Shown: one piece after another, positions 5,783 through 63,661 of the stretch
Layout of the letters: each line of letters begins with the position of its first letter
Numbering within the stretch: the stretch's first letter is position 1
From: Arctopsyche grandis
Taxonomy: Eukaryota > Arthropoda > Insecta > Trichoptera > Hydropsychidae
Reading direction: 5' to 3'
DNA: 64,000 nt
NCBI RefSeq assembly: GCF_051622035.1
Contig: NC_135361.1
Coordinates: 27,211,205 to 27,275,204 of the forward strand
Translations under genes and position numbers: made by a program
The notes under the pieces: model-generated
The model's database searches: none
What the model was told of the DNA's origin: nothing
The model's input: only the letters and a program-made list of their open reading frames with translations

Positions 5783-8700
5783 TCAGGAACGTAAAAGGTC
5801 AAAAGCGGAGGAGCCGTCCTTCTCCGGAAACACGCTCAGCAACTTTTTAAACTCGGCCATATCTTTGATACAATCATTCGGATGCTCGACGATGTCCTTG
5901 TACTGGATGAGGTAGTCTTGCTGCTCGCAGATCTTGACCTTCTTGTGCACGTGCTCGGTGAGTTCGCTCCTGACTATCGGCTTGCATCCGACGATCTGCA
6001 CCGACAGCTTTCTGCGATGCTTTTCGTCGGACTTGACCGCATATTCTAGCCACCACGCTGTGATGTCCTCCATGGTTAGACTCTTCAAGCACTCCACCTC
6101 CAGCTGCAGTTTGTTGTACTGGTATTCGGAGCTGGTGATCTCGCCCCAGTTGCGACGCACCTCGTCCTTCAGCTCGACGTCAACGCCGCTCTTCAACTTG
6201 ATCAGAGCCGTCTTCGACTGTCCGAATGAGTCGGCCGACATCTCTTGCAAGGTCTTGTAAAACTTAACCATGAACGCTTCGATCCTCTCGTCTACATATC
6301 CAGTAGTGTATTTCTCGGCTTGCACGTTGACCGTAATCGAAAAGCCCAATACACCATTTGTGTAGCGCGTCATACATACGACATTATAGCCCAACTGTTC
6401 TTTGGTTCGCAGCGTGTTGAAAAGCGGTTCTTCCATCAACAAAATAATCATTTCGACGATGCAACAATTCCTAACGTCGCCCATGCCGTATTGATAGTAG
6501 TTAGTGACAACGCTGTTCACATCGGCGGGATTGAAAGACGATATACGGCAATATTTCTCACCCAACGGCATTTCGTGAACTAGAATCTTTGGCTTGCCTC
6601 TCTTGCTGATCGGCTTCCAGTTCATATTTTTCTGTACGGTATCGGCTATCTTCAACGCGTCCTCCTTCAAGAGGTTCCCTTGCATTAGCATTTTAATATA
6701 CAGCTTCTCTTTGAAGCGCTCCCCGAAACCTTTCATATCTTCATACGTGACCGATTTCAAAGCTCTCAATTTATCCAAGATTGAACAATACGACACCATC
6801 AGCATCGACAGACGGACTTCCTTGACCAGCTTGTTCGGTTTCATCACCACGTTGTAATACGACTTGGCGTGTATGTCTTTGATAGCGTCGAACAAGTTCA
6901 ATGTCAAGCCGTCGCTGTAATTGCTCAACATCTGCGTGATCTGGTCGACGACTGTCGGCAACGTTTGACTGAAACCATTCAATTTGAGCATGATACCCTT
7001 CTCTTCGGAGAACAGAGACCTGGAGAGGCCGGTCACGTCAGCGGCATATAATTTCTCAGTTAGAAGTTGGCTCAAAGCCGTACACCACAGATCCATCATA
7101 CACGCTGTCTTCGCCGACTCATTCGCCAGTGGCGTTACAAAATATAAATACACAAAAGTGTACGGTAGATCGAAACGATAGTCTGGTTTGAACCAAACCT
7201 CCATCGAATCATCATTTCTGATCAGTTTCAAGCCGACTTTAGCTTCGGGCATAATGACCGTAACATGACTCGTTTGAGCTACGTCTCGACTTCCAGCAGC
7301 TTCCGTGCTAACGGTTAAAATAGATTCAGCTTCACCGTCAGTAGATATAGTACTGGCGGCTTCAGATCTAGCGTCGTCAGCCTTCTTCTTGGCTTCAACC
7401 AACGCATCGGGAGGCGGCGGGATCAGATCGAAACTATTCGGAATGAATCGATTGGCTTCCGGCAGATGAAATTCTCTCTCAGGCGCAATACTTTTCCATC
7501 GATCGAGTGTCCTCTTCATCAGTTGTACTTTTTTATATTCCGTGCCGAACCATTCCTCGACCAGGTCGTACTGTATCGGTTCGAGATAACTTTGAGACTG
7601 CAGCATAAGGTTGACGGTGTCTGGCGACATGGTGTTTATAACATACATTATCGCATCAGGATCATACTCGAACATGAGATCCTGTCCAGTCATGTAGTGT
7701 TGAGGCGGGAAATACTGCATATTTTCACACAATTGCTCGACGTTGTCATACGGCTGGGGTTCATCTTTGAATCTAAAGTTGATCTCGTCGATCCTTTTTA
7801 TCTCATCGAAAATCCTCTCGTTCGGGCAGTCCCTCTTCAACATGTTGATGTAGCTGAAGACGGCGTCGAGTACTTTATCGACGTTCAACAGTCCCTCCTG
7901 TGTCAACACAATCGACAGGCTGAAGAAACTCATCAGCGAAGTGTGTTCGATACCGCCTTCCTCGACTCCGCAAGACAGACCGAGCGCCCACACCTTACGT
8001 TGAAGATATAAAAGAAGACTGCCGGTGCCCTCGTGGCCTATGATCCACGACACATACTGATGAGGCTTAGTCTTATAATCCCTGATGAAAGACCGCATAC
8101 ACCAAGTCAGCGTCAGATTGGACGTTTGCAGCATCGGTTTGACGTAGTAGAGCGCGTTGAACTCCCGACTGACGAGGTTCGGCGTGAAACCGTAATTTGA
8201 AAAATCGTCAGCCGGTAGGTTATTCGACGGTATTTGTCCAAAAGTGGCGACGACATATTTCTCCAACGTGTCCAGAGGGAATCTGGCCTGGACGGCGACG
8301 GTCATCCGATGCGCGCTGTAGTGCCGCTGTCGAAATTCATGAGCCTTCTTGTACAAGTCGGTATCGGACGGACCGATGGGGGGTGTGAGACTGCGACAGT
8401 TTCCCCACATGAAATTGCGTCCCGGATGTCCGAGCGGCAGGGTCGTCGCCAACAGTTGGTCCTTCCTGTTCCCGTCTAGGGGCAACGCCAGTGCGAACTC
8501 GGACTCGATGGCTTGTCGTTCGCGCTGCATAGCCTCCTGTTTCATGAGCGGGGCTACGAAAAACTGCGAAAACCTGTCCATAGCTTCGGCGAGATGATTC
8601 TCTTGAATTTCGAAATAGAATGTAGTCGTCTCGCAGTCGGTCTGCGCGTTGTCGAAGCCGCCCTTCTTCTTGATGAAAGCGTCGAAACCGTTCTCGATGG

Positions 8701-9574
8701 GATACTTCCTGCTGCCCATGAAGACCATGTGTTCGACAAAGTGGGCCATCCCTTGGATGTTGGGCGGGTCGCTGAAGCTGCCGGTGCCGACGCACAGCGA
8801 ACACGCGGCCGCTTTGTTCTCCACGTGGCTGTCTTCGGCTTCGGCTTCGGCTTCAGCATCGGCTTCAGCACCGGCTTCAGCACCGGCCGAAGAGCCCGAC
8901 GAGCTGGAAGAGTCGGAGCCGGAGCCAGAGCCGGAGCCGGAGCCAGAGCCGGAGCCAGAGCCGGAGCCGGAGCCGGAGCCGGAGCCTGAGCCTTCGCCTT
9001 CGCTGTCGGACGAGTCGGAGGAGCCGTCTTCGTTGTCACCATCGGGGGGGGCGGCGGCGGCGGCCTCGTCTTCGGGGGGCGCCGGTCTGGGGTCTGAAAT
9101 CAGCAGCGCTGTCAGGCCGTTCTGCAGGCGGATCACTCGGTAGGACTTCTTATCGGATTCGGATTTGACCGGAGTCTCGAGAACCGTCACGGTCTCCGGC
9201 CGGTTGTTGGGGTTGGTGGGCATCACGAACCTCGTGGGGACATCTCTGGGCCCTTTTTGGCCCCCACGAAATAAGTGCAAGTTGGTATTCTTGAACGTAG
9301 GACCGCTCCTAGTCATAGCGAACAATGGACTGAGAAAACGACCGGCCACGAGGCGGCCCCCGGACAGAACTGACATGTACTTGACAGATTTTGGCCGTAA
9401 CGAACACATCGCCCGCCATACCTCTCGTGCATTTCCCGTCTTAAAAACGATTTTTTGACATTTGACGTCGATATTAAATTCGCAATTATTCACAAACGAC
9501 ATTAACAAACCAATTTCAATACGATACATCAAAAAAATCTCCAAAAAGACACCATTTTTAATACCACATTTCAA
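5783..9574 (-). CDS. NRDC: Nardilysin (M16 metallopeptidase, N-arginine dibasic convertase)
   Basis: Zinc peptidase of the pitrilysin/insulinase family (M16), which in animals cleaves N-terminal to arginine in dibasic sites. Seen: the inverted zinc motif HFVEH (residues 278-282) and the third ligand Glu359 (in AIESEFALA), 77 residues later as in insulin-degrading enzyme; then the full two-half M16 fold to residue 1263. About residues 167-250 form the family's acidic insert, here with a serine-glycine dipeptide run (196-220), an acidic/serine stretch and alanine-glutamate repeats, just before the zinc motif. The family is usually about 1100-1200 residues. No intron is visible. The start is uncertain: residues 1-66 look unlike nardilysin and an internal Met (56, 67 or 87) may be used, putting the true 5' end near 9408, 9376 or 9316. 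A minus-strand AATAAA lies at 5225-5220. Family call secure, start not. Confidence 0.95.
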   Translation of the reverse strand: MKCGIKNGVFLEIFLMYRIEIGLLMSFVNNCEFNIDVKCQKIVFKTGNAREVWRAMCSLRPKSVKYMSVLSGGRLVAGRFLSPLFAMTRSGPTFKNTNLHLFRGGQKGPRDVPTRFVMPTNPNNRPETVTVLETPVKSESDKKSYRVIRLQNGLTALLISDPRPAPPEDEAAAAAPPDGDNEDGSSDSSDSEGEGSGSGSGSGSGSGSGSGSGSGSGSGSDSSSSSGSSAGAEAGAEADAEAEAEAEDSHVENKAAACSLCVGTGSFSDPPNIQGMAHFVEHMVFMGSRKYPIENGFDAFIKKKGGFDNAQTDCETTTFYFEIQENHLAEAMDRFSQFFVAPLMKQEAMQRERQAIESEFALALPLDGNRKDQLLATTLPLGHPGRNFMWGNCRSLTPPIGPSDTDLYKKAHEFRQRHYSAHRMTVAVQARFPLDTLEKYVVATFGQIPSNNLPADDFSNYGFTPNLVSREFNALYYVKPMLQTSNLTLTWCMRSFIRDYKTKPHQYVSWIIGHEGTGSLLLYLQRKVWALGLSCGVEEGGIEHTSLMSFFSLSIVLTQEGLLNVDKVLDAVFSYINMLKRDCPNERIFDEIKRIDEINFRFKDEPQPYDNVEQLCENMQYFPPQHYMTGQDLMFEYDPDAIMYVINTMSPDTVNLMLQSQSYLEPIQYDLVEEWFGTEYKKVQLMKRTLDRWKSIAPEREFHLPEANRFIPNSFDLIPPPPDALVEAKKKADDARSEAASTISTDGEAESILTVSTEAAGSRDVAQTSHVTVIMPEAKVGLKLIRNDDSMEVWFKPDYRFDLPYTFVYLYFVTPLANESAKTACMMDLWCTALSQLLTEKLYAADVTGLSRSLFSEEKGIMLKLNGFSQTLPTVVDQITQMLSNYSDGLTLNLFDAIKDIHAKSYYNVVMKPNKLVKEVRLSMLMVSYCSILDKLRALKSVTYEDMKGFGERFKEKLYIKMLMQGNLLKEDALKIADTVQKNMNWKPISKRGKPKILVHEMPLGEKYCRISSFNPADVNSVVTNYYQYGMGDVRNCCIVEMIILLMEEPLFNTLRTKEQLGYNVVCMTRYTNGVLGFSITVNVQAEKYTTGYVDERIEAFMVKFYKTLQEMSADSFGQSKTALIKLKSGVDVELKDEVRRNWGEITSSEYQYNKLQLEVECLKSLTMEDITAWWLEYAVKSDEKHRRKLSVQIVGCKPIVRSELTEHVHKKVKICEQQDYLIQYKDIVEHPNDCIKDMAEFKKLLSVFPEKDGSSAFDLLRS
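8914..8992. repeat. Hexanucleotide (GGAGCC)n coding microsatellite inside nardilysin
   Basis: Runs of GGAGCC and AGAGCC on the plus strand, read on the minus strand as serine-glycine dipeptides in the acidic insert. The period of 6 keeps the frame, so copy number can vary without breaking the protein. Confidence 0.9.
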
Positions 9575-12560: not shown

Positions 12561-12709
12561 GAATTTATTTACCAATGAGCAAATTCTAAAAGTTGAATTG
12601 TAGTGAAAGTATTTCGAAAGCAAAATTGAGCCACGTCAGATGATGGTCGTAGTTCGTCGTGTTGTGTGTTGATTCACGACATCCACGTCGGGCCGCGTCA
12701 GTCGTCAAA

Positions 12710-13495
12710 ATGCATTCGTACGCATTGGTTGTGTTGTCGTTAGCGGCGCTGGCTTTCCAGGGGGCTGCGGCCTGCCAGGGGGCGACGGCCACCGTGTCCG
12801 CCTTCAGCGGCCGAGACTCGGCCGTGATATCGGCAGTGCCTTTCATCGCCGAAGTGTCGCTCACCTGCACCGGCGGGGACTCAACGGGGGCCCCCGGCAC
12901 CCTCTACGCCCGCATCGGCCAACGCACCCTTCCAGCCGCCAGGGTACCCAACAACAAATACCAGGTACGTTCACACCCATACTAAAAATCTTTTCTATTT
13001 TCAATTCACATCTTCCACATGTGCCAACACTTCCTTTCATCAATGGAAAGTCTTTTGAATTTCAAAACAAACTCATTCATTCAATTCGTATTGATATCGA
13101 TGACATACTCGAAACGATGTGTCTAATTGCAATTTCTTTTCATTTCAGATTTCTTGGACTGAAGAGTTATCAGAAGCGGCAAGCGGCAACCGAGAGATCC
13201 ATCTGTACACCGAGGCCGGATACACCGCTCTAAGGAAAGCTATGCGATCTGATCAAGACATATCGTCGGTGCCTAGTCTCGTCACAGTAGTAGTACCACA
13301 TTCTACAGGTAAATCTCGGTTCAATTATTATAATCTTGAACGTTCTACATATATCCAAATTGCTTGCCTTTACAATGATAAATGTCTGTTACAGGTTACA
13401 GTGGTCCGTGGATCAATTCTGAAGTCATGGCGGCAATTATGTCCATCGTCGTCGCATACATTGCTCTCACCAACAAAAGTAGATTATTGTCATAG
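12710..13495 (+). CDS. SSR4: Translocon-associated protein subunit delta (TRAP-delta)
   Basis: Subunit of the TRAP (SSR) complex that sits beside the Sec61 channel in the ER membrane and helps some proteins cross. Three exons join in frame: 12710-12964, 13149-13308 and 13395-13495 (171 residues). Splice sites are CCAG/GTACGT, TTTCAG/ATT, ACAG/GTAAAT and ACAG/GTTAC. Seen: cleavable signal peptide (1 to about 21), luminal beta-sandwich domain with Cys22 and Cys53 matching the family's conserved pair, the family blocks AVISAVPFIAEVSLTC and GPWINSEVMAA, then a C-terminal membrane helix and short NKSRLLS tail. Length matches animal TRAP-delta (about 165-175). This start is preferred to the Met 17 codons upstream because the signal peptide follows it directly. 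AATAAA at 13555-13560. Confidence 0.96.
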
Positions 13496-13554
13496 ATATA
13501 TTTGTATTTAATTGTTAAGTTATTATTTTCAAATTATTTATGTATGGATTTTAT

Positions 13555-19910: not shown

Positions 19911-22900
19911 CTAAGATGCTTCAGGCAAGCTGCAGCTACTGGAGCCACCTTCCATCTGGTCTGCAAGCTGCTGCCTCCTGGCTAACGCCAGCCTCTGCTG
20001 AGTGATCTCCAAGTGTTGTTTCCGCCATTTAATGCGTCTGTTTTGAAACCAGACCTTTACCTGCGAACGTCAAACTGTTAGACACGCGGCGTAATAAACT
20101 GACGCATTATAAATACTAAATTACTAGATATAAAATCATAATTACGTAATAAATTTTACACTCAAGTATTGAAAAGGTATTGCTATTTATAATATATAAA
20201 GAAAAACATATAAAAATCAATTAACTTATACAACTTTATATACCTGTGCTTCTGTTAGTTGCAAAGCGTGCGCCAAATAAAGTCTTTCCGGTCCGACCAT
20301 GTATTGTTGTCTTTCAAATTCTGCCTCAAGTCTCTCTAATTGCTCAGGTGTAAAGATAGTTCTCACCTGTGATTGAAAAATTAAATTTATTCCTTCGCTC
20401 TATTCAAATTGAAGACATGAAAAATGGGGTCGCGCTTACCCTTTTTGATTTTGACGTGTGGTGAACTGTTTGTGATGGTGTTTGCACGATATTACTTATC
20501 GGTCTTGATTTTGATTTTAGCACTTGTTGAGACCCGCCGGAAGAACACTCTAAAAATGAAAAAAAAATCTAGAATTATTTGGGAGAATTTTATTTTTATT
20601 TATTTATTATACTTGGGGGAGGCGGCAAAGCCGATAGACCCAAGAAGTTTGATTTATACATACTACATATATGTAAATTAAATGAGAAAAAAATTAAAAT
20701 ACATTTAAAATGGCAATATTAAAACAAAAATAAGAGAGTAAAAAAATAAACACGGAACAGAAATAAAAAAATGGCAAAAAAAATATTGGGAAAGAAGAAT
20801 AACACAACAAAATATTTTTGTTCTGTTATTTTCCTGAATAAGAAAATCATCATAAAATATTACATATATTTATAGCCAAACTATGAAATAAGGATTAACA
20901 TCGGTAAAGGCGTCGGCTTCGGTAAGAAATTATCATATAGCACTAGGCTACAATTCCCTCGAGTCACGGCGTACAGCATATCTGGGAAAACATTTCTATA
21001 AACTTCTAAGTGGATCAATATGCAATCCTCGTATTCTTGCGGAGTTGAAATTTAATGTTCCCAGCAAGTTCAGAGCTACTAGATACCACGAATTGTTCTT
21101 CCCACCTGAGGCACGTACCAATTTAATGCTTTCGTCCCCTGTCGCCAGGGGCATCAAGCTCCTCAACCAGATTTCTATTGGATTGGATCTGTTTAATCTA
21201 AAATATACTGATCTGGTTGATATACTGTTTAGTTTGAGATCGTAGCAACTTGTAACATATTGCATTTTTATATTCATATTTTTATATTTTCAAAATTTTA
21301 TATTTTTATGTTTCATATTTTTATATATTTATCTTTCATATTATTATTTTTCATTAAAATTTTATTTCTCATGTTTTTTATATTTTTATATTCCATGTAT
21401 TTACAATTTTATATTTTATATTTTATATTTTTATTTTTACAATTTATATTTTTATATTTTATGTTTTTACAATTTCGTATTTTTATATTTTTATATTTCA
21501 TGTTTTTACAATTTTGTATTTTTATATTTGTTTTATCCATATTTGTCTTTTAATTTATATATAATATTATTATAATATAATAATAATTAATTTCCTTTTT
21601 ATATAACCATAGTGTCGACTTGGAGTTGATCTGTAAAGTCACTATGGCAAATTTGTGAATAAATAAATATTAAGTACACATAATTAAATAATCATAATAA
21701 TTATCATGATAAATAAACGATGGGAAGAAAGTATTTTCAATAAAACTTCATTCAGCTGAAGCTTAAATACATACATATGTACATATTAATTTGTTCATTT
21801 AATTTTTAAATTTCTAAAGATTAATAACAGCAATGAAAAATAAACAGCAGAAAAGCATTGAATAATGGTAAATATAGTATATAAGTTTTAAATTTTTATC
21901 ACAATAAAAATTAACCAGAAAATTAGGCAGAAAACCAAAACGTTTGGTTCTGAACAGGACCAGGCGGCAAGAGTGAATGTTTTCAAGTTAATTCATGAAA
22001 ATATAGTGGTTTTACCCCCAATATCACATCTAGGACATTTTTCTTTCGATGACCAACCAATACTTAACATTCTTGAAGAAATACATCTAACAGTCACAAA
22101 TATAATAGAAAATAAAAGACCTAGCTCTATGCGGACCGAAGCTACATGTATGTATCTGCTATTCAGTGATTTCCCCGAATTATAAATAGTTCGGGTGTAT
22201 TAACAGTTGTAACTTGCAACAGCAATCCACAAGTATACAACAAGACAAACTAAATGCACGTTAAAAAGTACGATATCCTGCTTCGTATTTTTTAAGGAAT
22301 AAAATTTTTTCGACTCGTCTCTTTCGGCCGCCTTTATATTTCAGCCGCCTGTGTGCGTTGCACACATTTGTATATATAGTATTACTAAGAAAAATGATCA
22401 AACAATAAATAAACAAGAAAATTAACAACAAAAAGGGTCAATATGACATAGGGGAACATTGTTAAAAGAAGAGTGAAGATCTACATATATGAAAAGATAT
22501 TACAGAAATACATATTTAGATTTATACATATGTATATATCTAAATTAATAATAAAAATACCTTCGAATCAATATATTTATGCTAGCGACTCAAAGATTTT
22601 AAAATTTAAATGAATGATTCAAATTCGGAATTAAAATCACAGATATAAACCAAAGATAAATTAAAAGGTTATGAAACTGATATTTCTATAATGTATGAAA
22701 ATAAGTACATACATAATGTACATAATATGTGTTTGAATTCACAAGCGTTGCCACCGAATTCCATATTTCCAAAATAAAATCTATTTATATTATTGATTTT
22801 TAAATACAAAATTGCCTCCCAAATTTACTATAGAATATAATTTAACTACCTATTTATGTATATACAAAATAACTTAATCATTTTCATTAGTTTCAACGTT

Positions 22901-43160: not shown

Positions 43161-43588
43161 ACAGTGACGCATTCGACCAATACATACATATTCGGGTATA
43201 CATACAGACGAGTATCTACATACAAATACATACAGAAATGTGTTTTTGTGCGGACAAATATATTGCATGCGCATATACAAGTCATTTTTGATAGCGTTCA
43301 TCCTCGCCGAATCGATTAACGACCCAATAAAATAAAAAGAAAAGTCGTGACGAATGTTCATTTTTTATTTATTCTATTTCCACTATATAGGTGTGTTATA
43401 TACGAAGCGTGAAACACGACCCTTTCGTGATGAAATGTCAAAATGCAATTAATTATAATATTATTGTTAAGCGATTAGTTGTTTGAAGTACATGTCGTCA
43501 AAAAAAGCGGAACACTCAGTGAGTAAATAAAAAATAAAAAATAAATGTTAGTTCGCACTCAAAAATACCAAAAACGTTAATTACAGAC
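43161..43588 (+). promoter_or_regulatory. 5' flank of the repeat-protein gene
   Basis: An initiator-like TCAGT (43516-43520) lies 69 bases upstream of the ATG. A TATATAG at about 43384 is too far away to serve it. A TTACAG acceptor-like site ends two bases before the ATG, so an upstream noncoding exon is possible. Confidence 0.3.
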
Positions 43589-46500
43589 ATGAAAGTACTT
43601 CTGCTTCTCGTCTTAATGACGTTGGTTGCAATGACTTCCTCGTTATTGCTCAGTGATTGGCATAATCATAACGAAGACGTTTCTATTGAGAGAAATCCAA
43701 AACCTAGACTTCACGACGAAGAAATTTATACTGTGAGGAATAAAAAACCGAGATTGGGCGGTGAAGCTACTACTATGCAAAATATGAAGCCTAGACTTCG
43801 AAAAAATTGGGAAGAAATGACCACAATACGTAGACGCAAGCCTGGATTTGGTACAACTACAGTCCGTAATGGTAAGCCTCACCTAGACCATGACGACGAC
43901 GTTACTACCTTAAGAAACAAAAAATCCGGATTTCGCACTACCACAATACGTAGACGCAAGCCCGGATTTGGTACAACTACAGTCCGTAATGGCAAGCCTC
44001 ACCTAGACCACGACGACGACGTTACTACCGTAAGAAACAAAAAACCCGGATTTCGCACTACCACAATACGTAGACGCAAGCCTGGATTCGGTACAACTAC
44101 AGTCCGTAATGGTAAGCCTCACCTAGACCATGACGACGACGTTACTACCTTAAGAAACAAAAAATCCGGATTTCGCACTACCACAATACGTAGACGCAAG
44201 CCTGGATTCGGTACAACTACAGTCCGTAATGGCAAGCCTCACCTAGACCATGACGACGACGTTACTACCGTAAAAAACAAAAAACCCGGATTTCGCACTA
44301 CCACTATACGTAGACGCAAGCCTGGATTCGGTACAACTACAGTCCGTAATGGCAAGCCTCACCTAGACCATGACGACGACGTTACTACCGTAAGAAACAT
44401 AAAACCCGGATTCCGAACAACCACAATACGTAGACGCAAGCCCGGATTCGGTACAACTACAGTCCGTAATGGCAAGCCTCACCTAGACCACGACGACGAC
44501 GTTACTACCGTAAGAAACAAGAAACCCGGATTTCGCACTACCACTATACGTAGACGCAAGCCCGGATTCGGTACAACTACAGTCCGTAATGGTAAGCCTC
44601 ACCTAGACCATGACGACGACGTTACTACCGTAAGAAACAAAAAATCCGGATTTCGCACTACCACAATACGTAGACGCAAGCCCGGATTCGGTACAACTAC
44701 AGTCCGTAATGGCAAGCCTCACCTAGACCACGACGACGACGTTACTACCGTAAGAAACAAGAAACCCGGATTTCGCACTACCACTATACGTAGACGCAAG
44801 CCCGGATTCGGTACAACTACAGTCCGTAATGGCAAGCCTCACCTAGACCACGACGACGACGTTACTACCGTAAGAAACAAAAAACCCGGATTTCGCACTA
44901 CCACAATACGTAGACGCAAGCCCGGATTCGGTACAACTACAGTCCGTAATGGCAAGCCTCACCTAGACCACGACGACGATGTTACTACCGTAAGAAACAA
45001 GAAACCCGGATTTCGCACTACCACTATACGTAGACGCAAGCCCGGATTCGGTACAACTACAGTCCGTAATGGCAAGCCTCACCTAGACCACGACGACGAC
45101 TTTACTACCGTAAGAAACAAGAAACCCGGATTTCGCACTACCACTATACGTAGACGCAAGCCCGGATTCGGTACAACTACAGTCCGTAATGGTAAGCCTC
45201 ACCTAGACCATGACGACGACGTTACTACCGTAAGAAACAAAAAATCCGGATTTCGCACTACCACAATACGTAGACGCAAGCCCGGATTCGGTACAACTAC
45301 AGTCCGTAATGGCAAGCCTCACCTAGACCACGACGACGACGTTACTACCGTAAGAAACAAGAAACCCGGATTTCGCACTACCACTATACGTAGACGCAAG
45401 CCCGGATTCGGTACAACTACAGTCCGTAATGGCAAGCCTCACCTAGACCACGACGACGACGTTACTACCGTAAGAAACAAAAAACCCGGATTTCGCACTA
45501 CCACAATACGTAGACGCAAGCCCGGATTCGGTACAACTACAGTCCGTAATGGCAAGCCTCACCTAGACCACGACGACGATGTTACTACCGTAAGAAACAA
45601 GAAACCCGGATTTCGCACTACCACTATACGTAGACGCAAGCCCGGATTCGGTACAACTACAGTCCGTAATGGCAAGCCTCACCTAGACCACGACGACGAC
45701 TTTACTACCGTAAGAAACAAGAAACCCGGATTTCGCACTACCACTATACGTAGACGCAAGCCCGGATTCGGTACAACTACAGTCCGTAATGGCAAGCCTC
45801 ACCTAGACCATGACGACGACGTTACTACCGTAAGAAACATAAAACCCGGATTCCGAACAACCACAATACGTAGACGCAAGCCCGGATTCGGTACAACTAC
45901 AGTCCGTAATGGCAAGCCTCACCTAGACCACGACGACGACGTTACTACCGTAAGAAACAAGAAACCCGGATTTCGCACTACCACTATACGTAGACGCAAG
46001 CCCGGATTCGGTACAACTACAGTCCGTAATGGTAAGCCTCACCTAGACCATGACGACGACGTTACTACCGTAAGAAACAAAAAATCCGGATTTCGCACTA
46101 CCACAATACGTAGACGCAAGCCCGGATTCGGTACAACTACAGTCCGTAATGGCAAGCCTCACCTAGACCACGACGACGACGTTACTACCGTAAGAAACAA
46201 GAAACCCGGATTTCGCACTACCACTATACGTAGACGCAAGCCCGGATTCGGTACAACTACAGTCCGTAATGGCAAGCCTCACCTAGACCACGACGACGAC
46301 GTTACTACCGTAAGAAACAAAAAACCCGGATTTCGCACTACCACAATACGTAGACGCAAGCCCGGATTCGGTACAACTACAGTCCGTAATGGCAAGCCTC
46401 ACCTAGACCACGACGACGATGTTACTACCGTAAGAAACAAGAAACCCGGATTTCGCACTACCACTATACGTAGACGCAAGCCCGGATTCGGTACAACTAC

Positions 46501-47095
46501 AGTCCGTAATGGCAAGCCTCACCTAGACCACGACGACGACTTTACTACCGTAAGAAACAAGAAACCCGGATTTCGCACTACCACTATACGTAGACGCAAG
46601 CCCGGATTCGGTACAACTACAGTCCGTAATGGCAAGCCTCATCTAGACCATGACGACGACGTTACTACCGTAAGAAACAAGAAACCCGGATTTCGCACTA
46701 CCACTATACGTAGACGCAAGCCCGGATTCGGTACAACTACAGTCCGTAATGGCAAACCTCACCTAGACCATGACGACGACGTTACTACCGTTAGAAACAA
46801 AAAACCCGAATTTCGCACTACCACAATACGTAGACGCAAGCCTGGATTCGGTACAACTACAGTCCGTAATGGCAAACCTCACCTAGGCCATGACGAGGAC
46901 GTTACTACCGTAAGAAATAAAAAACCTGGATTTCGTACCACCACAATCCGTAATGGCAAGCCCCACTTAAAAGATAATTATATAGTTACTGCAAGGAATA
47001 TAAAACCAAATCTCAAAATTGTGAATGAAGAATTTAATCTTGTCAAAAATTCCATTCCTAATAGTGACGATGATGATGAAGCACATAACCATTAA
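43589..47095 (+). CDS. Secreted 40-residue tandem-repeat protein (unrecognised family)
   Basis: 1168 residues in one exon. A clear signal peptide (MKVLLLLVLMTLVAMTSS) is followed by a short DWHNHNED segment. Next come degenerate 13-16-residue units (VRNKKPRLGG, MQNMKPRL), then 26 near-identical 40-residue units (residues 78-1117; 43820-46939). Each unit reads TTIRRRKPGFG, TTTVRNGKPHLDHDDD, VTTVRNKKPGFR. The tail decays back to single units (IRNGKPHLKDNY, ARNIKPNL) and ends acidic (DDDDEAHNH). Basic, threonine-rich and acidic stretches alternate. No cysteine and no folded domain seen. RRR sites could be cut by a furin-like protease to give many copies of one cationic peptide, or the protein could be a structural secretion such as glue, silk or cement. 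Apidaecin precursors are organised similarly but differ in sequence. ATTAAA at 47126-47131. Reality as a gene is likely; function unknown. Confidence 0.85.
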   Translation: MKVLLLLVLMTLVAMTSSLLLSDWHNHNEDVSIERNPKPRLHDEEIYTVRNKKPRLGGEATTMQNMKPRLRKNWEEMTTIRRRKPGFGTTTVRNGKPHLDHDDDVTTLRNKKSGFRTTTIRRRKPGFGTTTVRNGKPHLDHDDDVTTVRNKKPGFRTTTIRRRKPGFGTTTVRNGKPHLDHDDDVTTLRNKKSGFRTTTIRRRKPGFGTTTVRNGKPHLDHDDDVTTVKNKKPGFRTTTIRRRKPGFGTTTVRNGKPHLDHDDDVTTVRNIKPGFRTTTIRRRKPGFGTTTVRNGKPHLDHDDDVTTVRNKKPGFRTTTIRRRKPGFGTTTVRNGKPHLDHDDDVTTVRNKKSGFRTTTIRRRKPGFGTTTVRNGKPHLDHDDDVTTVRNKKPGFRTTTIRRRKPGFGTTTVRNGKPHLDHDDDVTTVRNKKPGFRTTTIRRRKPGFGTTTVRNGKPHLDHDDDVTTVRNKKPGFRTTTIRRRKPGFGTTTVRNGKPHLDHDDDFTTVRNKKPGFRTTTIRRRKPGFGTTTVRNGKPHLDHDDDVTTVRNKKSGFRTTTIRRRKPGFGTTTVRNGKPHLDHDDDVTTVRNKKPGFRTTTIRRRKPGFGTTTVRNGKPHLDHDDDVTTVRNKKPGFRTTTIRRRKPGFGTTTVRNGKPHLDHDDDVTTVRNKKPGFRTTTIRRRKPGFGTTTVRNGKPHLDHDDDFTTVRNKKPGFRTTTIRRRKPGFGTTTVRNGKPHLDHDDDVTTVRNIKPGFRTTTIRRRKPGFGTTTVRNGKPHLDHDDDVTTVRNKKPGFRTTTIRRRKPGFGTTTVRNGKPHLDHDDDVTTVRNKKSGFRTTTIRRRKPGFGTTTVRNGKPHLDHDDDVTTVRNKKPGFRTTTIRRRKPGFGTTTVRNGKPHLDHDDDVTTVRNKKPGFRTTTIRRRKPGFGTTTVRNGKPHLDHDDDVTTVRNKKPGFRTTTIRRRKPGFGTTTVRNGKPHLDHDDDFTTVRNKKPGFRTTTIRRRKPGFGTTTVRNGKPHLDHDDDVTTVRNKKPGFRTTTIRRRKPGFGTTTVRNGKPHLDHDDDVTTVRNKKPEFRTTTIRRRKPGFGTTTVRNGKPHLGHDEDVTTVRNKKPGFRTTTIRNGKPHLKDNYIVTARNIKPNLKIVNEEFNLVKNSIPNSDDDDEAHNH
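43820..46939 (+). repeat. 26 x 120 bp coding tandem repeat with higher-order blocks
   Basis: Period is exactly 120 bp over 3120 bp. Marker variants give the order of units: S P S P I P S P P P F S P P P F I P S P P P F P E P (S or P in KK(S/P)GF; I for NIK; F for DDDF; E for PEF). Units 5-11 and 17-23 are the same seven-unit block. Units 7-11, 12-16 and 19-23 are the same five-unit block. Confidence 0.97.
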
Positions 47096-47125: not shown

Positions 47126-47131
47126 ATTAAA
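47126..47131 (+). terminator. Polyadenylation signal of the repeat-protein gene
   Basis: ATTAAA about 31 bases after the stop codon; no stronger hexamer is nearer. Confidence 0.6.
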
Positions 47132-59583: not shown

Positions 59584-61955
59584 ATGGAATTCGAAGAAGT
59601 GTTCATAGATGTACCGTGGGGAAAAATTGCAGGTTTATTTATTTTTTTTTTATTATATGTATATCATACTGTGATAATTCACACTTGTTTGTAAATCTCT
59701 CGAATCAAATCATTTGTTACATTAAAATAAATCTTTTCAGCATTATGCTATGGACAGAAAGATTGGCCAATCGTGCTGATGGTTCACGGTAACCAAGACT
59801 CGGCCGGAACATTCCTACCCCTCGTTGAATAGTAATGCCTACAACTTTTTATCATGCAAAAAATACTTTCAAACCAAATTTAACACCAATCAATTATTTT
59901 TCAGTTTTCCTAAGAAATTCCGGCTGATTATACCTGAGATGCCGAGCAGCGGACACTCGTCACCGTTTCCTCCCGGTCGGCCTCTGCAAGTTTTAGACTT
60001 TGTTTCGCCTTTAAAATTCGTCGTAGACCATTTTGGAATAGATCAGTTTACATATATAGGACACTCCATGGGAGTGCAAATAGGTCCTTGTTGCTATAAT
60101 TATATAAAATATAATATTAATTGTTGAACTTTAATTTACCACTAAACTACCTTTCTTATTTTCTAGGTTTATTATTCAATGCTGTATACCCTAACTATAT
60201 AACTAAACTTATATGCTTGGACTCTGTATCATATCCAGCAGTAGAACCGGATATTTTTGCAAATTGGTTCAAATGGACGTATGAAAATTACTATGATGAA
60301 AATAACTATAACAAATTCAATTCGAGACCAACTTCAAACCCTAGTTACACATACGAAAAGGTATAATGTTATAAAAACCTCATTTTATAAGATAAACATT
60401 GAACAAATTATTATAGTACACATTTATAATTTCATCATAACTCGTTAACTCATTCCCAAATCATTTTTTCAATTCAAAAGTATACGAAGACATGAAAATA
60501 GATATTTAAATTGAATATTATTATGATGATGCATATTCAAATATCCCTGATAAACTGATATTTTTTACAAATGATGCATCGATAAGTTCAATCAATGGCT
60601 ATTTGCAATGAACGAGCCAATATTTAGTTTCAGTCGATTCATTAAAACTCAAAAACAGGATACTATTCAACTTTTATTCAACCTTTCTTTAAAAATTTCC
60701 ACTATCGATAATTCAACATCGTATTGTTTGGAAGCAGAAGCTTATTTTGCAAGAATTTTTAAGGTTTTAACCGTTTACCCGCGGCCGTCTTCTATGGAAG
60801 CTTTGCGTGACAAGTCTGTAGCGCGGCTGTCTTCCATAGAATTTCTGAACCTTGCACGGGATTTTGAGCCTTATATGCGCCTATTTCAGCTGTTTTAAGG
60901 TTCAAAATTGGTTGAATATATTACTGAGAGTTGAATGCCATCTATTCAATTTGCTTAAAATGACTATATACCAGTCAAAAATTAGTTTTTTGTGGAACCA
61001 TACTGAAACCTCGTTTATGTGACGTCACATATTCATGCAATTATGAAGAATGATTATTTGACAATTAATCCAAAACTACGAGATATATTATGTATTTTAT
61101 TGTTTAAAATAATACTTTCTGTGTTAATTAACATATCTGGTTACTTGAGTAAATATTAAAATCTGTATTTAAGGTCGAAAACTCGATTGCCAAATTCGCG
61201 AAAAAGGTGCCGCGTACAGGGCTTGTTCGCTATATTTATTGCCGCTGGCAAAGGGTTAACAAATGATTACTGGATTGTCTTAAAAGCCTGCTGGGTGACT
61301 TCTGATTATTACAATGTATCCTTTCATTTAAAATATATCCATTAATTTGTAGGCTCTAGCACACGTTAGGAAAACTCGCGGTTTGACTGAATCTGCAGGC
61401 AAAGCTGTATTGAAAAGATCTCTCATTCCAGCTGGCAACGGATTATATAGGTTGAATTTTTAACTTGTTCGAATAATACTTGTATATTCAAATTATACAC
61501 GAACTCTTTCAATTTTACAGTTTTTGCTGGGATCAACGCTTAAAGTTGCTCAACATTCCACTATTTAGCATTCAGTATCAATTGGCCCTGTTTGGTAGCA
61601 TGAAGATGCCACATTTGACTATATTGGCCAGCGAATCGGTGAAGATGAAAATGAAGTCTGTAAAGTTGCATCTCATCGAAGAACACTTTGTGAACAATTC
61701 TAACTATAGGTATGATACGATTCAACTTAGCGAGTGCTTCGATGTTTGTATTGTGCTTATAATTATATCGCAAAATGTTTCAGGCTAGTTATGGTAGATG
61801 GAAATCATGATGTTCATTTGAATGACCCGGAAGGTGTAGCGAAGCATGTGGTTCCATTTTTGAATGGACAAGACGCCGATAAAGAAATTACAGCTCGTTT
61901 CGTACATCAGTATAGGAATATGTGGAATGATATACAAACTAAATCTAAATTATAA
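59584..61955 (+). CDS. Probable serine hydrolase, alpha/beta fold (kraken/SERHL type)
   Basis: Seven exons join in frame to 323 residues: 59584-59632, 59741-59831, 59905-60083, 60167-60360, 61353-61450, 61521-61709 and 61784-61955. Seen: starts EVFIDVPWGKIA like kraken and SERHL; oxyanion-hole HGNQDSAGTF (32-41); nucleophile elbow GHSMG with Ser101; family block YPNYITKLICLDS; WDQRLKL; catalytic His275 in GNHDVHLNDPEG near the C-terminus. The acid member is not obvious. Length fits kraken (about 330) and SERHL. The family acts on an unknown ester or amide substrate, and is reported in peroxisomes/cytosol in animals. Exon 2 needs the donor GTAATG at 59832; without it the frame would meet a stop. 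Exon 3's donor (GTCCTT) is weak. AATAAA overlaps the stop (61954-61959). No disruption seen. Confidence 0.9.
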
Positions 61956-62856: not shown

Positions 62857-63206
62857 TATTTATTTAATAGTTTTGGACCATTGTGGCATTACAGGAAGAA
62901 CCTAATGCGCCACAATGGCCTACGTTTGAAAAATATATAAAAACAAGTAAACTGTAAATAAAGGAAAAAAGCAAAAGCAGAAAACATGGTAAAATAAAAT
63001 AATAAAAAAAAGTAACAAAAGGAAAATAATACATCATTCAGAGAGAAAAAAAAATAACAAAAGTGTAAAAATCAAAAATAAAATCCATGAATCCCATTCT
63101 TTGTTTACACTGAACAAAATTAAAATAGTATATAAAAATGTACAAAGGAGAAATAAAATAAAACAAAATATGAATAAAAAATAAAATCACAGCGAGGCAC
63201 AAATGA
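62857..63206 (-). mobile_element. Non-LTR retrotransposon 3' UTR copy
   Basis: Near-identical to 2020-2440: CCATTGTGGCATTACAGGAA, CACAATGGCCTACG, ACATCATTCAGAGAGAAAAA, ATCCCATTCTTTGTTTACAC. It lacks the coding part and the 37 bp duplication seen in the first copy. Confidence 0.85.
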
Positions 63207-63661
63207 AGTTATAATTGTATTAGTTGAAATTGTCAACTACAGTAGCGTTTCCCCTAATTGAGAAATTACTGTATAAAAAGAAATTATTTAATATTATACA
63301 AATAAAAACTTAATCAGAATTTGTTTTATTTATTTTAAATATTTTATAAACTATATAGTAAGTCAAAAAACTTAAAAAAATTGATAATTTAAATTCAAAA
63401 TGACTAACTTAAAGTATGGTCGTATAAGACTATTTTATGATCAAAAACATTGCTTGACAGCTGTCAAAATCAATGGAGCGGATGCCACTGAAGAATTCTC
63501 AATAAGGTTTCATCAATGTTAATATTGTTAAATAAATAATACACTTGTTTTTCAATAATGATTGTACAAAAAAAATCTAATTTGAATTATTTAAATTTAT
63601 ATGAGATGATTTACCGTTTTCAGACATCACATAATTGAATAGCCGAAAGCAATACAGAAAC
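63207..63661. other. Intergenic DNA and 5' side of the terminal gene
   Basis: AT-rich. A TTTCAG acceptor-like site at 63618-63623 and an in-frame stop TAA lie just upstream of the ATG of the next gene. Confidence 0.4.

Follow-up and report, generated by a model that had tools for sequence, protein, structure and literature searches.

Introduction

Repetitive silk proteins of caddisflies and moths and repetitive antimicrobial peptide precursors are the closest described systems to the gene analysed here, which lies in 64,000 nucleotides of the Arctopsyche grandis genome (GCF_051622035.1, contig NC_135361.1, positions 27,211,205 to 27,275,204 of the forward strand; this whole stretch is hereafter the window) and encodes a 1168-residue protein made almost entirely of one 40-residue repeat. 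The cadhesins (Caz) of Limnephilus lunatus are repetitive silk proteins with a putative adhesive role; most of their genes have two exons, the first coding for part of the signal peptide, with a long repeat exon in most, and they form two clusters on one chromosome (PMC11092239). In all 15 Caz rows listed the commonest residue is serine or threonine, at 13.8-47.2%, and in another caddisfly silk protein, the 15-kDa KD15, lysine and aspartate come foremost (PMC11092239). In Plectrocnemia conspersa the pseudofibroin (Pfib) Pfib4 is a 135-kDa silk protein in which acidic and basic clusters recur periodically; every Pfib gene of this species has two exons and a split signal peptide, and its 'monolithic' zonadhesin-like silk genes are usually intronless (PMC9432349). 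Links described for caddisfly silk include those of the dityrosine and phosphoserine-calcium kinds.

The precursors of apidaecins (PMC11549390) and of ant hymenoptaecins (PMC3415428) carry RR or KR together with EAEP-like dipeptides between the peptide copies. Mature apidaecins share the conserved C-terminal motif PRPPHPRL, and the new apidaecin-like peptides reported come from bees and wasps only (PMC11549390). Compared with these systems, the most plausible reading of the A. grandis protein, at a probability of roughly 0.5, is that of an intact, secreted, polycationic structural polyampholyte of the glue or silk type. Though like cadhesins and pseudofibroins in kind, it is not assigned to either group.

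Results

A single uninterrupted frame on the + strand, 43589-47095, encodes the protein as the initial annotation had described it, and the accompanying count of 26 repeats without cysteine was borne out: 26 RRRKPGFG units begin at residue 81, every one of the 25 spacings is exactly 40 residues and there are 0 cysteines. Tandem Repeats Finder independently gave a 120-bp period, 26.2 copies, 96% matches and 0% indels over 43820-46963. The earlier description of the unit as one 40-residue repeat stands and can be refined, in that the unit is itself three copies of a shorter motif (TTTI-RRRKPGFG, TTTV-RNGKPHL-DHDDD and VTTV-RNKKPGFR), the core [V/I]-R-N-x-K-P-x-[L/F] underlying all three thirds. 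A loose form of this core has 84 matches, 78 in the array and 6 in the flanks. Read in all 26 units, the acidic spacer is DHDDD in 25 and GHDED in one. Beyond the array, 80 N-terminal and 48 C-terminal residues continue the open frame with degenerate motif copies. The parts of the gene are as follows.

43589..47095, + strand: whole coding sequence, 1168 residues and stop, covered by the open frame, the repeat anatomy and the coding tests
43589..43645, + strand: signal-peptide-like N-terminus, residues 1 to ~19, by eye, with a predicted helix at residues 2-25
43670..43828, + strand: N-terminal flank, in which RNPKPRL, RNKKPRL and QNMKPRL are degenerate forms of the motif (three copies)
43829..46948, + strand: array of 26 tandem 120-bp units, each RRRKPGFGTTTV / RNGKPHLDHDDDVTTV / RNKKPGFRTTTI
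44309..45148, + strand: 840-bp block of 7 units that differs from 45749-46588 at 1 position
46949..47092, + strand: C-terminal flank with three motif copies (1 exact, 2 degenerate) and an acidic DDDDEAHNH tail

The signal peptide was called by eye from the sequence. Of the earlier claim of a secreted protein with a signal peptide, the signal-like start is thus retained on this judgement, and the protein is, from that start, probably secreted.

Because 120 bp is divisible by three, the long open frame within the array does not by itself testify to coding. The array is truly coding, and not a chance open repeat, because changes among the units are mostly synonymous, the other frames of unit 1 all contain stops and the motif copies in the flanks are diverse in their codons. 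With the last of the 26 units excluded, the other 25 show 19 distinct changes from the unit consensus, 13 synonymous and 6 not, against an expected 25% synonymous (p = 8e-5, without correction for transition bias). In unit 1, where the frames were checked, the used frame is free of stops and each of the five others has 1 to 4. The codon comparison took in nine motif copies, six from the flanks and three from unit 1; among these nine, 72 of 129 identical residue pairs differ in codon, and shifting the frame by one or two bases lowers the residue identity of the motif copies from 51% to 23% and 15%. One may suppose instead that the gene is not expressed, or is a recently decaying repeat with a frame open by chance, and the searches described below, which found no homologue, would agree with this. 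The excess of synonymous changes and the different codons of the motif copies in both flanks argue against such a history, which appears exceedingly improbable.

Turnover of the array is evident from its longer blocks. Units 5-11 and 17-23 (numbered from 1) differ at 1 base in 840, and by this near identity the block at 44309..45148 is a recent segmental duplication inside the array. One block of 5 units is found three times with zero differences. As read from these copies the array grew through block duplications, and the identical 5-unit blocks together with the 13 synonymous changes among 19 indicate that the repeats are homogenised under constraint on the protein sequence.

The protein has a mass of ~134 kDa, a pI of 11.5 and a net charge of ~+159 at pH 7. 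Its composition, computed with 20 residues removed, has threonine at 18.6%, arginine at 14.2%, lysine at 9.8%, aspartate at 9.6%, serine at 0.8%, alanine at 0.3%, tyrosine at 0.2% and cysteine at 0. Charge segregation is 0.128, against a mean of 0.058 and a maximum of 0.070 in 200 shuffles, and the charge-hydropathy rule puts the protein on the disordered side. There is no N-glycosylation sequon in the protein. A single-sequence AlphaFold2 (AF2) model of residues 1-240 has a helix at 2-25 and similar periodic strands in each unit, at a mean predicted local distance difference test score (pLDDT) of 51.7, a predicted template modelling score (pTM) of 0.42 and 0 residues at or above 90. A folded repeat protein, either a beta-solenoid or a beta-hairpin array, that displays RNxKPx[LF] many times as a binding ligand could be proposed from the like recurrence of the strands and from the NG and KKPG turns, which would suit hairpins. 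This is opposed by the low confidence of the model and by the charge-hydropathy position. Moreover, AF2 is described as building beta-solenoids out of perfect repeats of random sequence (PMC11795689), for which reason the strand pattern is given little weight, and on such modelling a folded array would be very unlikely.

The full-length protein, searched against 5.8 billion proteins, gave 390 candidates with none at E <= 0.001, and a shortened 208-residue form gave 157 candidates with none at E <= 10. PADLOC returned no match, and residues 1-240, used alone as the query against viral contigs, gave 3 pattern matches with no relative among them. A match to PDB entry 9wlv (E 0.83) was dismissed as chance. 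Four Pfam names matched, of which only fvmJAB_N (PF20011) exceeded its cut-off, as a whole-protein sum (53.6 against 27 bits); since none of the four has a stretch that passes on its own, all were taken as artefacts of summing over repeats. The absence of a known domain, asserted in the initial annotation, agrees with this, and its remark that the unit was unfamiliar agrees with the lack of a homologue in the protein and genome searches.

The searches of the own genome (475.7 Mb, 189 contigs) score the best candidates only. There the full protein matched only itself and its own antisense, the latter (27% identity, 19 stops) being rejected as it is the array itself read from the other strand, and a shortened 168-residue form had 26 matches at E <= 10, every one within this gene. 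When the window and 60 kb on each side were scanned for the motif, it turned up outside the gene five times, always in isolation, and no other repeat frame of the kind was found. By the searches made, the gene is single-copy in its genome, and with no relative in the databases searched it may be regarded as an orphan, although close relatives whose genomes lack assembly or annotation lie beyond their reach. A text search by sequence found no paper with any of four peptide words of the unit, and searches by topic, not by sequence, of the literature on caddisfly egg-mass secretions and on polyampholyte coacervates with caddisfly silk found nothing on this protein among the entries listed.

The position of the genome among insects was approached through a nardilysin gene on the - strand at 5783-9574, for which a protein search gave 823 matches. 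In a midpoint-rooted tree of the query and 33 of the best 120 of these 823, with bootstrap values not fully settled, the query and its nearest nardilysin, P0001 (67% identity in the tree columns), form a fully supported pair; this pair is in turn grouped, again fully supported, with 15 rows, 13 of them named and all of those Lepidoptera, and it sits outside the sampled moths and butterflies. An L-fibroin exon in the own genome at C1:9999809-10000018 scored 49.5 bits, above the Pfam cut-off of 27, and 0 of 14 control genomes had a match. As judged from the tree and this exon, the genome is on the silk-making caddisfly and moth branch, where Trichoptera would fit best and an early-branching moth less well. 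The P25 family had no match in the own genome, nor in the control genomes, and a DNA pattern for (SX)n aimed at heavy fibroin had 170 matches against 99 in the control, those among the matches listed being mostly TG repeats; neither result was given weight. The nardilysin-like M16 peptidase is itself encoded as 1263 residues in one long open frame with Pfam M16 domains, and simple-repeat DNA lies within its gene near 8833-8992.

Three further candidate features adjoin the repeat gene, each called from pattern only.

43384..43390, + strand: TATA-like TATATAG, candidate promoter element
43519..43586, + strand: predicted 68-bp intron of the 5' untranslated region, GTGAGT...ATTACAG, by splice-site consensus
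47126..47131, + strand: candidate poly-A signal ATTAAA

The TATA-like pattern is weak, since the two strands of the 1.5 kb together have 5 matches where 2 are expected, and the predicted intron stops 2 bases short of the ATG. Upstream of the gene there are 11 forkhead-type sites; overlapping 1.5-kb bins of the window average 6.4 and 10% are equally high, and the sites were not used as evidence. Elsewhere in the window, exons like those of translocon-associated protein delta (12653-13508, +), a NOTO-like homeobox exon (20229-20399, -) and a serine-hydrolase-like (alpha/beta hydrolase) gene of several exons (59780-61952, +) were recognised by eye. Two similar copies ~60 kb apart, at 2023-2441 and 62867-63208, share long stretches in translation and are probably a transposable element; the first contains a 42-bp tandem unit. 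To the left of the window, ~38.3-39.6 kb from its start, lies a 90-bp tandem array with a 30-residue lag; several of its frames are open on either strand, and it is probably not coding.

Discussion

The initial annotation had likened the repeat layout to that of apidaecin-like precursors. A precursor from which cleavage at RR or RRR in each unit frees many cationic peptides, antimicrobial or signalling in function, would account for the signal-like start, the 26 near-identical copies, the basic segments and the acidic spacers, and in its signal peptide, copies and spacers the protein is like the apidaecin and ant hymenoptaecin precursors. Convertases, however, dislike proline after the cut site. 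The protein has 52 basic runs (26 RRRK, 25 KK and 1 RK), which are followed by proline in 46 cases, including all 26 RRRK, by serine in 5 and by asparagine in 1; this favours an uncut chain, although cleavage after RR or RRR within RRRK could occur despite the proline after K. Of the 114 lysines, 78 precede proline. R-x-[K/R]-R is nowhere in the protein, and by eye no glycine directly precedes a basic run, which leaves no usual amidation signal. The spacers, both DHDDD and GHDED, are not beside a basic pair, there are no EAEP-type or E/D-A/P dipeptides, and the net charge shows that the spacers fail to balance the basic parts. Three kappaB patterns had 0 matches in the 1.5 kb upstream, where 0.04-0.3 are expected by chance, which is weak evidence against a precursor. 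Unlike the apidaecin and hymenoptaecin precursors, the translation has proline after most basic runs, lacks both the EAEP-type spacer and PRPPHPRL, and comes from a genome that is not hymenopteran. The basic segments, acidic spacers and many copies of the earlier proposal stand, while their reading as a peptide precursor is weakened and now seems improbable. By analogy a glue or silk-coat protein is more likely than an antimicrobial peptide store.

A threonine-rich glue, silk or cement protein had been the alternative of the initial annotation, and it fits better than the precursor because the genome is placed on the silk-making branch; threonine is also the commonest residue. The structural reading is further supported by charge segregation above that of all shuffles, by the disordered-side position and by homogenised repeats with constraint at the protein level, and it draws on analogy with the caddisfly silk proteins described above, namely the cadhesins, Pfib4 and KD15. 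The intact polyampholyte would be made in a gland, for which the larval labial silk gland is the first choice and an adult glue gland the second. Each unit has charge patches of +4 (RRRK), +2 (R..K), -4 (DHDDD) and +4 (R.KK...R), and with 26 such units the chains may attach to one another, to partner proteins or polysaccharides of acidic character and to surfaces of mineral or organic material, which would make the secretion condense and stick. The threonine clusters could plausibly be O-glycosylated or phosphorylated. Here the secretion, the gland, the stickiness and the threonine modification are what we infer.

Cadhesins and pseudofibroins were set apart from the protein by described features and composition, not by sequence comparison. 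Like the cadhesins, the protein is repetitive, and its threonine content lies within the Caz range. Unlike them, it has a signal-like start that is, by the predicted gene structure, not split over two exons, no comparable repeat frame in the 60 kb to either side and no second genome copy found where the L. lunatus genes are clustered, and arginine, lysine and aspartate following threonine, whereas no listed Caz row has arginine or aspartate in its top three. With Pfib4 it shares a mass of ~135 kDa, periodic repeats and acidic and basic clusters, but Pfib4 has 32.8% alanine, Ser-Ala and Ser-Gly motifs, cysteines, two exons and a split signal peptide, none of which matches the composition or gene structure found here. 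Since the Caz exon and cluster rules and the Pfib composition fail, the protein was filed under neither. Lepidopteran sericins are likewise hydrophilic, repetitive gland secretions, from which the protein differs in its low serine and strong charge.

Several observations weigh against a structural silk or glue protein. The composition is unmatched among the table rows considered for L. lunatus (Table 1) and P. conspersa, and with so little tyrosine and serine and no cysteine the chain would hardly form dityrosine, phosphoserine-calcium or disulphide links. A single ATG opens the frame that takes in both the signal-like sequence and the repeats, with the predicted intron upstream of it. An open-frame scan of 60 kb on either side found no similar repeat gene, silk genes as such not being searched for there, and no homologue was found in lgn, the source of P0001, taken as assembled transcripts. 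The same anatomy would be expected of a structural protein that works by this polycation chemistry in some other product, be it egg-mass or colleterial glue, eggshell, peritrophic matrix, cuticle or seminal fluid, and nothing found ties the protein to silk glands; a polycation would also bind an acidic polysaccharide jelly. No chitin-binding or chorion domain is among the Pfam matches, which speaks against this origin, and we hold it to be possible if doubtful. As a more specific form of the glue-type reading, one may speculate that a lineage-restricted polyampholyte acts as a one-molecule coacervate adhesive, in which every 40-residue unit supplies both the basic and the acidic partner; nearly free of serine and tyrosine and wholly free of cysteine, it would adhere in water through neither phosphoserine-calcium nor dityrosine but some different chemistry, a proposal that is rather unlikely as it stands.

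If the protein is a silk or egg glue, its short and simple genetically encoded unit, in which the charges are unusually arranged, could be made and tried as a wet adhesive. As a large protein without a relative in the searches, whose sequence is under selection and whose repeat number is turning over, it would be a useful case for the origin of orphan structural proteins.
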